From Prolixibacter bellariivorans ATCC BAA-1284 (GTDB taxonomy: Bacteria; Bacteroidota; Bacteroidia; Bacteroidales; Prolixibacteraceae): DNA of 64,000 nucleotides. The DNA lies in assembly GCF_000621705.1 (NCBI RefSeq), contig NZ_JHXO01000005.1, positions 186,001 through 250,000 of the forward strand. The letters run 5' to 3'. A program made the position numbers and the translations under genes. The number at the start of each line of letters is the position of its first letter. The stretch's first letter is position 1. Of this stretch, positions 1 to 42,596 are shown piece by piece. Below the pieces are notes generated by a model. That model did no database searches. It worked only from the letters and a program-made list of their open reading frames with translations, and had not been told where the DNA came from.

Positions 1-251
1 AAGATGGTTCCTATCTCCGTTTGAAAACGGTGACACTGAGCTACCAGCTTCCGAAAACTTTGACTGAAAAGGTGAAAATGCAGAATGTGAAAGTGTATGC
101 AACCGGAGAGAACCTCTGGACACTCACCAACTATTCCGGATTTGACCCGGAAGTGAATGCCTTCGGTACGCAAAATACGGCAAAAGGCATCGATTACGGT
201 ACCTATCCGCAGACCCGGAACATCATCTTTGGTTTAAATATAACTTTCTAA
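1..251 (+). CDS. SusC-like TonB-dependent outer membrane transporter, C-terminal end only
   Basis: The reading frame is open from the window edge, so the start lies upstream. About 82 residues remain, beginning DGSYLRLKTVTLSYQLP, which is the typical penultimate beta-strand region of SusC/RagA transporters, and ending in GLNITF with a terminal Phe as expected for a beta-barrel recognised by the BAM machinery. SusC forms the TonB-powered outer membrane channel that imports glycan oligomers under a SusD lid. The SusD gene follows 13 bp later, so the two are surely co-transcribed. Only the last strands are visible, so the substrate cannot be inferred from this part. Confidence 0.9.
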   Translation, partial: DGSYLRLKTVTLSYQLPKTLTEKVKMQNVKVYATGENLWTLTNYSGFDPEVNAFGTQNTAKGIDYGTYPQTRNIIFGLNITF

Positions 252-39846: not shown

Positions 39847-39932
39847 AAAAAAAGGATAGACGGGCATCTATCCTTTCCAACCTAACTAAACCAATAAAAC
39901 TAACTAAATCCAAACCTATGAATAAAAAATCT
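39847..39932 (-). ncRNA. Predicted small RNA, array copy 1
   Basis: On the minus strand the unit has TATATTTG (39944-39937), a perfect TAnnTTTG -7 box, preceded by a conserved AACACATGTTTTTCAGCA-type stretch. A transcript starting near 39932 would be about 86 nt. Its body contains TTTGGATTTAGTTAGTTTT and TTGGTTTAGTTAGGTTGG, and it ends in GGATAGA-tgcccg-TCTATCC followed by seven T, an ideal intrinsic terminator. On the plus strand the same sequence reads as an A/C-rich leader ending in AACCTATGAA. No -33 TTG box is evident. Four more copies follow. Transcription has not been shown. Confidence 0.65.
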
Positions 39933-40078
39933 GTTACAAATATATGCTGAAAAACATGTGTTTGTGTTAAGCTACTTTTAAAAATATTTTAAAAAGAACT
40001 GAATTGCGATTGAAAAGCACAAATTTCAGTCTCTTCGGATTTCCGTGCCAGGATTGAGTGGAGATAATTTAATGGCGT

Positions 40079-40167
40079 AAAAAAAAGGATAGATGCCATC
40101 TATCCTTTTCCAACCTAACTAAACTAACTAATCCATAAAACGAATTCCAAACTTGTGTTTGAAAATC
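40079..40167 (-). ncRNA. Predicted small RNA, array copy 2 (divergent)
   Basis: The -7 box is TATATTTG (40179-40172). The terminator is GGATAGA-tggca-TCTATCC with eight T, so the loop differs from the other copies (TGGCA in place of TGCCCG). The GTTAGTTTAGTTAGGTTGG segment is kept, while the region near the predicted 5' end differs, with CAAACACAAGTTTGGAATTC replacing the ATTCATAGGTTTGGA part. That the -7 box and terminator are kept while the rest drifts argues for function as a transcription unit. Confidence 0.6.
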
Positions 40168-40354
40168 GCTGCAAATATATGTTGAAAAACATAATTTGTA
40201 TGTTAAGCGTGCTTTAAAAAATGAAGACGAGGTCAAAATATTTTTCATCGCCATAAGCTTCATTTTTGTTTGTAACTAGTATCGGCAGCGGGGGTGCGGT
40301 GATGGTCACCTGCGAGCTGAATTGCGGATTTTGAAGGCAGCAATTTTAAGGCAT

Positions 40355-40440
40355 AAAAAAAGGATAGACGGGCATCTATCCTTTCCAACCTAACTAAACC
40401 AATAAAACTAACTAAATCCAAACCTATGAATAAAAAATCT
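40355..40440 (-). ncRNA. Predicted small RNA, array copy 3
   Basis: Almost identical to copy 1 from the -7 box (TATATTTG, 40452-40445) to the terminator (GGATAGA/TCTATCC with seven T). One difference lies near the predicted 5' end. The sequence separating it from copy 2 is unrelated to the other spacers. Confidence 0.65.
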
Positions 40441-40600
40441 ATTACAAATATATGCTGAAAAACATGTTTCTGTGTTAAGTCATTTTTAAAAGAAGATTAA
40501 ATCGATAATAAGTCATACCAATATCGGAGTTGATTCTGCCTGAAATTCAATTTCTGTTTACGATTCAAAACACATTGGAAAATTCCAGAATTTAAGGCAT

Positions 40601-40685
40601 AAAAAAAGGATAGACGGGCATCTATCCTTTCCAACCTAACTAAACCAATAAAACTAACTAAATCCAAACCTATGAATAAAAATCT
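40601..40685 (-). ncRNA. Predicted small RNA, array copy 4
   Basis: Near identical to copies 1 and 3, with one A deleted in the plus-strand A-run after ATGAATAAAA. That deletion shifts the frame of the short plus-strand peptide, which argues against that peptide being the conserved product. The -7 box is TATATTTG (40697-40690), and the terminator stem and seven T are intact. Confidence 0.65.
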
Positions 40686-40869
40686 ATTACAAATATATGC
40701 TGAAAAACATGTTTGTGTGTTAAGCTACTTTTAAAAGAATTTTAAAAAGGTGATCTTTTTGGAATGGCTGTTTTTCATTGTCCTTATATTTTTTGTTTCG
40801 ACCATTTTACATCTTTCCTTACGACTCAATCTTTTGTTAACCTGGTTGTCTTTCAGGTTTTTGTCAATG

Positions 40870-40967
40870 AAAAAAAGGATAGACGGGCATCTATCCTTTT
40901 CCAACCTAACTAAAACTAACTAAACCAATAAAAACTAACTAAATCCAAACCTATGAATAAAAATCAC
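40870..40967 (-). ncRNA. Predicted small RNA, array copy 5 (longest)
   Basis: The -7 box is TACATTTG (40979-40972), still a perfect match to TAnnTTTG although two of the eight bases around it changed. The body has an extra TTAGTTTTAGTTAGG repeat, so the predicted RNA is about 98 nt. The terminator GGATAGA/TCTATCC with the same loop as copy 1 and seven T is intact. Upstream of the box the conserved ACATGTTTTTCAGC stretch is largely lost. Confidence 0.62.
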
Positions 40968-41068
40968 ATGACAAATGTATGTTTTAAAACACTTGATTTC
41001 ATTAAGACAATGTTAAAAATATTTCGCAAACGATTGCAGTGGGCAATTTTTTAGGAAGGAACGTAAGC

Positions 41069-41097
41069 AAAAAAAGGAACGATTATTCGTTCCTTTT
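41069..41097 (-). terminator. Rho-independent terminator of the floA operon
   Basis: On the minus strand AAGGAACGA pairs with TCGTTCCTT around ATAA, followed by TTTTTTT. It lies about 28 bp past the floA stop and stops read-through into the sRNA array. Confidence 0.9.
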
Positions 41098-41124
41098 CCT
41101 TTTGATATAATGAGTGATTTTTTT

Positions 41125-42120
41125 CTATTCCGATTGATTGCCGATGGATGATGATGAACTGCTTTCATCTTTTGCAATCGAATCACGCATGGCTGTGTCG
41201 GCATTAATGTTTTTGTACTTCATATAGTCCATAATGCCAAGGTTACCATTTTTAAAAGCCTCTGAAATGGCAAGCGGTACCTGCGCTTCGGCTTCAATTA
41301 CTTTGGCACGTGCTTCCTGAGCTTTGGCTTTCATTTCCTGCTCGAGAGCGACAGCCATCGCGCGGCGTTCTTCGGCTTTTGCCTGAGCGATATTTTTATC
41401 CGCTTCGGCCTGGTCCATTTGCAATACCGCACCAATGTTTTTACCAATGTCGATATCGGCAATATCGATAGACAGAATCTCGAAAGCAGTACCGGCATCC
41501 AACCCTTTTTCCAACACTACGCGTGAGATAGAATCCGGATTTTCCAACACTTCTTTATGCGAGAATGACGAACCAATTGATGATACAATACCTTCACCAA
41601 CACGGGCCAGAACAGTCTCTTCGCCAGCTCCACCTACCAGCTGCTTGATATTGGCCCTGACGGTTACGCGGGCTTTACAAATCAGCTGAATACCATCTTT
41701 TGATACGGCTGTTACCGGTGGTGTATCGATAACTTTGGGATTCACCGACATTTGTACTGCCTGGAAAACATCGCGACCTGCAAGGTCGATGGCTGTAGCC
41801 ATATTAAAGGAAAGTTCGATGTTGGCTTTTTCAGCGGAAACCAGTGCGTGCACCACACTCTCAACATGCCCACCGGCAAGGTAGTGCGCTTCAAGCAAAT
41901 CACGTTTGATTCCTCCCAATCCTGCTTTATGTGCTTCAATCATCGCCCGGGTTATCACACCCGGAGGAACTTTACGGAAGCGCATCAGAAATAGTTGCAT
42001 CAACGAAATTCGTACCCCTGATACAATGGCTGAAAACCAAAGTCCAATAGGTATAAAATAAAGGAAGATAATCAGCAGGACGACTATCCCGACAATTATT
42101 CCCACAGTACCTGGAATCAT
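41125..42120 (-). CDS. floA: Flotillin-like protein FloA
   Basis: This 331-residue protein matches the FloA/YqfA (UPF0365) family in length and sequence. It has an N-terminal membrane hairpin ([20 protein letters not shown]), a PHB-like domain starting [20 protein letters not shown], then [22 protein letters not shown], and an Ala/Glu-rich coiled coil ([20 protein letters not shown]). FloA organises membrane microdomains. Its start overlaps the nfeD stop by 4 bp, the usual partnership. The C-terminal tail is Ser-rich ([12 protein letters not shown]), unlike many homologues. Confidence 0.96.
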
Positions 42121-42596
42121 AACTCTTCTTTTTTTATAGGTTTAACGATTATTTGATTCTTTAAAACTTTTACAATTTCAACTTCGGTACCGGCGTCCAT
42201 CATGGGGCCGGTTGATTTCCCTTCCATCACCTGCCCGTCAAATTCAACCTTCCCGACAGGGCCAAGCCGGGTAACTGTTACTCCCTTGTCTCCTGCATGA
42301 AACCGGGTATCCTCAATCAGGTTCGTTTTTCCGATTATGGTGGATTTCAATGACATTTTATCTCCTATTTTTCCTTTAAGGAGCTTAAACATCAGGATGG
42401 GAACAACAATAATAATGAAAAGCAGTGTTCCGATTCCTGCGGCTGTACCATAGGCTCCAAACGCCAGGTAGATGCTGTAACCAAAGAGTACTATACCTCC
42501 GATTCCGGCAATGGTGATTCCGGGGATTACGGCAAATTCAAGAAGTAATAATATGATTCCCAGGAAAATGAGAAGCAGTATGGTCAGGATTGTCAT
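42117..42596 (-). CDS. NfeD-like membrane protein
   Basis: This 159-residue protein has three to four membrane helices in the first 85 residues ([41 protein letters not shown]), followed by a C-terminal OB-fold domain ([38 protein letters not shown]). This is the short NfeD type without the protease domain, typically encoded beside flotillin. It probably helps scaffold FloA microdomains. Confidence 0.93.

Follow-up and report, generated by a model that had tools for sequence, protein, structure and literature searches.

In the 64,000-nucleotide stretch of Prolixibacter bellariivorans DNA analysed here (the window, to which all positions without a contig label refer) five sRNA-like units were found in tandem on the minus strand, each with a C-poor body between a TAnnTTTG box and an intrinsic terminator. 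The predicted sRNA of unit 1 (body and terminator) occupies 39847-39936, with the hairpin and T-run at 39847-39876 and the seed stretch TTTTTTATTCATAGG at 39915-39929, and its promoter (39937-39981) combines a TATATTTG box at 39937-39944 with an upstream TTAA-N7-TTAA repeat. All the other promoters are built in the same way. Unit 2 (40079-40171; promoter 40172-40217, TATATTTG box 40172-40179) is a diverged copy that has the seed AACACAAG instead of TTCATAGG and has retained its terminator. It is followed by the predicted sRNAs of unit 3 (40355-40444, seed stretch 40423-40437; promoter 40445-40489, TATATTTG box 40445-40452) and unit 4 (40601-40689, seed stretch 40669-40682; promoter 40690-40734, TATATTTG box 40690-40697). 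Unit 5 (40870-40971, seed stretch 40950-40963) is a longer copy with an additional TTTTAGTTAG repeat, and its promoter (40972-41016) carries a TACATTTG box at 40972-40979. The upstream neighbour of the array, in other genera too as judged by synteny, encodes a FloA flotillin-like protein (41125-42120, minus strand, PF12127) and is itself preceded by a gene for an NfeD-like protein (42117-42596, minus strand, PF01957). Between floA and the array, 3' of floA, lies a terminator-like hairpin on the same strand (41067-41098; GGAACGA..TCGTTCC, T7), which gave a chance match to a plastid family in the Rfam search.

The terminators of all five units have a GGATAGA..TCTATCC hairpin followed by 7 or 8 T, and the distance from box end to T-run end is 90, 93, 90, 89 and 102 nt for units 1 to 5, respectively. 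An earlier note on this DNA had described five minus-strand units of shared layout, and both the coordinates and the layout were confirmed; the body length of 85-98 nt that it gave has to be replaced by 89-102 nt when measured from box end to T-run end. Its statement that the spacers are unrelated needs a limit, as the roughly 45 nt that precede each box are conserved too; beyond them it holds. It had also regarded copies 2 and 5 as diverged with box and terminator kept, in agreement with the changed seed of unit 2, the greater length of unit 5 and the boxes and terminators present in both. A motif from the body had three matches at up to two mismatches (units 1, 3 and 4) and none in shuffles. 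A coding role for the units was ruled out from sequence, as units 1, 3 and 4 have no ATG in the body ahead of the terminator and the single ATG in the body of unit 5 is directly followed by TGA; the body of unit 2 also contains one ATG. Single-sequence folding returned the terminator hairpin in all five units, with body folds that differ among them, and folding z-scores of -1.4 to -2.1 for units 1, 3, 4 and 5 and of -5.5 for unit 2. The seed of unit 2 (window 40110-40171) reads AACACAAG in P. bellariivorans, AACACAGG in the genus-mate G003 and AGCATAGG in the genus-mates G001 and G002. Unit 2 has thus lost its start-codon seed in P. bellariivorans, and may be drifting or aimed at another target.

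In all five promoters the TTAA-N7-TTAA direct repeat precedes the box by 22 or 23 nt, near the expected position of the -33 box, and its halves are 11 bp apart, corresponding to one helical turn. The composite pattern of repeat plus box had exactly five matches in the 64 kb, one per unit, where 0.02 were expected, and five matches were reached in 0 of 100 shuffles. The missing -33 TTG box had previously been taken to weaken the promoter call; its absence was confirmed, but every promoter carries TTAA-N7-TTAA at this place. In many activator-dependent promoters such repeats are located near the -33 position. Relatives of the units are of two types, A (the window array) and B (with two copies in the P. 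bellariivorans genome, at C2:467.5 kb). Where 60 nt of upstream sequence were available, 60 of 87 distinct type-A copies had the repeat; among type-B copies the number was 6 of 76, and shuffled upstream stretches had it in 0.6% of cases. This arrangement suggests that an activator, acting at TTAA-N7-TTAA in place of the -33 box, switches on all five genes jointly.

By blastn the family was detected in 34 of 61 sampled genomes, namely in 34 of 37 Prolixibacteraceae and in 0 of 24 genomes from other families of the order; the order of this sample is wider than the Marinilabiliales in which NCBI places Prolixibacteraceae and, by inference, is the GTDB Bacteroidales. A pattern scan of named genomes, among the matches listed (80 of at least 119), pointed to Prolixibacter, Maribellus, Draconibacterium, Mangrovibacterium, Sunxiuqinia, Mariniphaga and Tangfeifania, all Prolixibacteraceae in the NCBI listing, and additionally to many MAGs with names at class or phylum level only and to single records labelled Nostoc, Flavobacterium and Chitinophaga. 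In an alignment of 40 sequences the 12 pairs of the terminator stem are kept in 97.7% of cells. The stem, which was specified for this analysis, had 52 doubly changed cells; shuffles gave 16.2 ± 4.2, and slid controls never more than 16. Mean column identity was 0.889 in the core (31 columns), 0.784 in the stem (16) and 0.39 in the loop (4 scorable columns). A stem that covaries while the unpaired body is conserved in sequence looks like the pattern of an RNA gene. Among four species of the genus, units at the same position are 95-100% identical (unit 2: 82-97%), whereas identity in the 100 nt that follow the terminator ranges from 19 to 92%; as units 1, 3 and 4 are mutually 91-96% identical, the positional assignment relies on order and spacers. 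Four of the five units are present in the genus-mate G003. The same-position conservation indicates that the array is no younger than the sampled species and has been retained by selection, and the earlier view of an sRNA gene family under selection is borne out by the family-wide layout, the covarying stem and units that are more conserved than their spacers. No published report of the family was found in literature searches with the seed string, with Prolixibacteraceae and sRNA, and with Bacteroidetes, sRNA and SusC, as judged by titles and in a coverage that excludes most subscription journals; among the Bacteroidetes literature on sRNAs, SusC and paralogous sRNAs the RbpB paper was the only one on topic by title.

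The array is not the only cluster of such units in the genome. A covariance model built from type-A and type-B Prolixibacteraceae sequences (R1) gave seven strong copies in P. bellariivorans and nine weaker tandem matches (E 0.001 to 0.1), the latter at C1:302.0-302.7, C9:215.7-216.6 and C10:174.8-175.2 kb. Reading of these three stretches revealed 4, 4 and 2 units, respectively, with the layout of box, U-run with CAU, GUUAG-rich tail, hairpin and T-run; one C1 unit has CAUUGA instead of CAUAG. In total, the genome contains 17 units in five clusters (5 in the window, 2 of type B and 10 distant). The type-B pair (G000:C2:467508-467805, L262), with copies 200 nt apart, is located near two tandem tRNA genes, and an 8-kb stretch of Prolixibacter denitrificans aligns around it at 83% over its length. 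The four tandem relatives on C1 (G000:C1:302036-302739, L259) lie between an epimerase-family gene and a gene that by eye is metK-like, and G001 and G002 share this gene order, having 3 and 4 cores, respectively; at the C1 locus of G003 the genes are kept and no core was found by the pattern used. Directly upstream of the metK-like gene a SAM-II riboswitch was matched (L259:8815-8873, 66.4 bits, cut-off 44). The four C9 relatives (G000:C9:215738-216643, L260) are located beside an AhpC peroxiredoxin gene and an ORF that by eye is Fur-like, and one more UUUUUUUCAUAGG element with a hairpin is present on the opposite strand, at C9:214723. It was a search of 41 genomes for near-perfect complements (AATCAAACCTAAACTTATGAAA, up to two mismatches) that exposed type B: the loci read were sRNA copies, and no mRNA was noticed among them. 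The pattern TTTGN{4,30}TTTTTTCATAG, run over 295 genomes, was noisy (11 matches in the P. bellariivorans genome compared to 5 in the reversed control) and provided leads only; most of the 30 loci read from it were not sRNA-like.

Rfam returned nothing meaningful for the window or for the relatives of the array. The covariance search proposed earlier brought no Rfam family for the units; the nearest named family is FopS (RF04319) of Bacteroides. With RF04319 the window had no match at the 56-bit cut-off and none around the units even at E ≤ 10, and the window units are outside the membership of that family. The same model gave 42, 32 and 26 bits on the C9 cluster, below that cut-off; three of four bridging RNAs of family f30 reached 30.5-36.6 bits, and the fourth had no match. 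Over 100 genomes it reached E ≤ 0.001 in 12 of 40 genomes outside Prolixibacteraceae (7 above cut-off) and in 4 of 60 inside (0 above). R1, searched in 393 genomes of the order, had matches in 13, of which 5 were Prolixibacteraceae and 8 belonged to other families, and in G047 and G065 R1 and RF04319 matched the same loci. By blastn the RNAs from other families led to records of Bacteroides, Phocaeicola, Parabacteroides and Prevotella and to five phage records, and Rfam identified 5 of the 6 such loci tested as FopS, RF04319. Among 15 loci that had been chosen for FopS or its blastn relative, R1 matched the FopS position in 14 and missed L295; these scores are weak, with one of 42 bits and the others from 19 to 36, at E up to 0.14 in 40 kb. 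The FopS-like superfamily is patchy across the order, and the window family is likely homologous with FopS, through stepwise and weak links between covariance models. FopS-type sRNAs outside Bacteroidaceae (L295, L298, L282, L286) scored 70.2 bits in Parabacteroides (Tannerellaceae) and 65 bits in each of two other genomes, and a Prevotella stretch of the same set gave 32.8 bits with R1, the only model applied to it. Bacteroides phage BX-TP2 (L294) carries a FopS match of 78.9 bits with RF04319, and a DNA methyltransferase gene lies about 0.3 kb away. A second sRNA-like type, with UUUUUUCAUAG followed by UUAAGGUUUAGGUUAA, was observed at L281, L285 and L287 in other families; L281 scored 33.9 bits with FopS, and L281 and L287 gave weak scores with BTnc231.

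Like FopS, the window units are multicopy (5 close copies, 7 with type B and 17 with the distant clusters) and have, by sequence, a TAnnTTTG-type promoter and an intrinsic terminator, together with a 5' seed containing (U)UUCAUAG and a C-poor tail. They differ in that UUAGUUAG repeats stand where FopS has the GGUUAACAAAGAUUGGCUG block, in their tandem arrangement beside floA, in the upstream TTAA-N7-TTAA and in being longer. The GibS model RF04182 had no match in the window; GibS is a single longer sRNA (model of 142 positions) with a second seed, R2. LhrC of Listeria is likewise a set of multicopy paralogous sRNAs, from another phylum and unrelated in sequence to the window units. In the accessible text of the FopS study (PMC11697453) LhrC1-7 of Listeria are named, GibS shares the R1 seed with FopS, and FopS itself is present in many copies per genome in Bacteroidaceae, the family within which its conservation is described. 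According to the same text, FopS bands on Northern blots are 65-70 nt, compared to the 89-102 nt from box to T-run end, minus a few nt and with predicted ends, for the window units (PMC11697453). FopS pairs with susC mRNAs at their start codon, blocking translation, and RbpB, an RRM protein, binds FopS and relieves the block in vitro, as stated there (PMC11697453). SusC mRNA targets are thus published for FopS and only predicted for the window units.

To this prediction we applied the 30 best-scoring of 56 SusC-model matches (43 above cut-off) in the P. bellariivorans genome; as controls, ORFs of at least 150 aa were taken from the window and 24 further stretches, each read from its first ATG (n = 363, or 361 once two SusC-like ORFs were left out). 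The SusC starts share ancestry and composition, which bears on all the following comparisons with controls. One SusC-model match (G000:C3:183384-186248) extends into the start of the window (1-248). CTATGAAAAA was present in 11 of 30 SusC starts compared to 2 of 361 controls (Fisher p 5e-12 against 2/363), and TATGAAAAAA in 16 of 30 compared to 3 of 361. Duplex energies, computed for the 30 SusC starts and 150 sampled controls with 8 dinucleotide-shuffled versions per unit, gave an AUC of 0.80 for unit 4, compared to a mean of 0.51 and a highest value of 0.66 for its shuffles. The AUC was 0.70-0.82 for 14 of the 17 units, and 16 of 17 exceeded all 8 of their own shuffles, the averages of which were 0.36-0.51. 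Unit 2 and the units C2_2 and C1_1 showed little preference (0.60-0.61), and C1_1 was not above its shuffles. The CAU of unit 4 pairs with the AUG in register in 25 of 30 SusC starts compared to 127 of 363 controls, and seven further units that were examined lean the same way. When pairing was confined to the sequence upstream of the start, the AUC dropped to 0.71 for unit 4, and the preference was absent for a C9 unit (0.53). In G031, from another genus (30 of 61 SusC matches, 200 sampled controls), an AUC of 0.75 was obtained with its own sRNA as well as with unit 4, so no lineage-specific match was seen. The base at -1 of the SusC starts gave CTATGAA 15 times and TTATGAA 6 times in the P. 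bellariivorans genome, and 4 and 7 times in G031; a match of CAUAG or CAUAA seeds to this base by genus was set aside, as the controls favour TTATGAA in both genomes.

We consider it probable, from the sequence comparisons, that the five units are FopS-like anti-start-codon sRNAs that repress SusC translation and have been expanded into arrays. Each unit would be a separate sRNA gene of a paralogous family, the Prolixibacteraceae branch of a superfamily of the broad-sense Bacteroidales that includes Bacteroides FopS. The RNAs, with a predicted length of about 85-100 nt, would end in the intrinsic terminator, and their body would run from a U-rich stretch through UUCAUAGG to a C-poor GUUUGGAUUUAGUUAG... 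tail. The body would be antisense to the mRNA starts of SusC-type receptors (typically ...CUAUGAAAAAA), with CAU pairing to AUG, and a leader covered in this way would be blocked for ribosome binding, lowering SusC translation. An activator at TTAA-N7-TTAA would turn on the five genes together. The comparisons show the anatomy of the genes, their conservation, the covarying terminator, the recurring locus and a complementarity to starts that is in register and biased towards SusC; transcription, repression, the activator and a single regulon for all clusters are what we infer.

It is unlikely, although it is the strongest of the alternatives, that these are real sRNAs with other mRNAs as their main targets, and that the SusC match stems from A-rich, G-poor leaders and from an MKK start common to many secreted proteins. 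SusC leaders are indeed G-poor (0.10 compared to 0.16), and other genes account for 19 of the 32 best partners predicted for unit 4, SusC for 13. However, dinucleotide-shuffled sRNAs lose the SusC preference, and the preference persists when both sets start with ATGAAA: with unit 4 the AUC was then 0.83 in the P. bellariivorans genome (20 compared to 82 genes) and 0.80 in G031 (17 compared to 52), so the effect is not just that of the MKK start.

A lower probability still is given to a role of the RNAs as protein ligands or sponges, in which the repeated single-stranded UUAGUUAG would titrate an RRM-type protein and mRNA pairing would be secondary. The binding of FopS by RbpB (reported in the accessible text of PMC11697453) would fit such a role, as would the number of UUAGUUAG repeats, which differs between copies, and the three RRM_1 matches in the P. 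bellariivorans genome, one of them in a gene about 3.4 kb from the C1 cluster. RRM protein matches were found in 51 of 61 genomes, but G013 and G032, which both carry arrays, had none, indicating that an RbpB-like partner may not be needed everywhere; moreover, a sponge does not predict the register with the SusC start.

Among the testable loci of the matches listed, 12 of 21 have the array directly downstream of nfeD-floA. Among the matches listed (80 loci), 27 of 43 type-A copies followed floA in the same orientation at a distance of at most 2.5 kb, 11 did not and 5 were too close to an edge, with 1 to 5 copies beside floA per locus, whereas of 50 type-B copies 0 were downstream of floA, 46 were not and 4 were too close to an edge. 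This recurrent site argues that the array is not a transposon. In the P. bellariivorans genome blastn detected five close copies only, all in the array, and the remaining clusters, although built in the same way, are related only distantly and do not represent copies of one element. The case that would have spoken against RNA genes in the earlier note, a transposon family scattered through the genome, was not encountered, and a transposon reading was ruled out by the five-copy blastn result, the floA site common to several genera and the same-position conservation within the genus. That the units are some mobile or repeat DNA element, a transposon remnant or REP-like, is therefore very improbable, despite their multiple copies and the distant clusters elsewhere in the genome, given also the covarying terminator stem and the floA site of 27 of 38 copies among the matches listed.

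Returning to anti-start-codon sRNAs, a wider reading can be offered tentatively, with somewhat less than even confidence. An ancient superfamily of such sRNAs, mirroring the consensus SusC start, may be spread patchily through the broad-sense Bacteroidales and may have been expanded differently by its lineages, as many copies in Bacteroidaceae (published) and as tandem arrays in Prolixibacteraceae. The five arrays of P. bellariivorans, with their different upstream elements, could then feed different signals into one seed and act as a global translational brake on nutrient receptors. Clusters with a common seed but different upstream sequences would allow the question of why a bacterium retains many copies of a single sRNA to be tested directly. 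If the relatives in environmental Prolixibacteraceae, with their tandem arrays at a recurrent site, do act in this way, sRNA control of SusC translation would be a wider trait and not a gut speciality.
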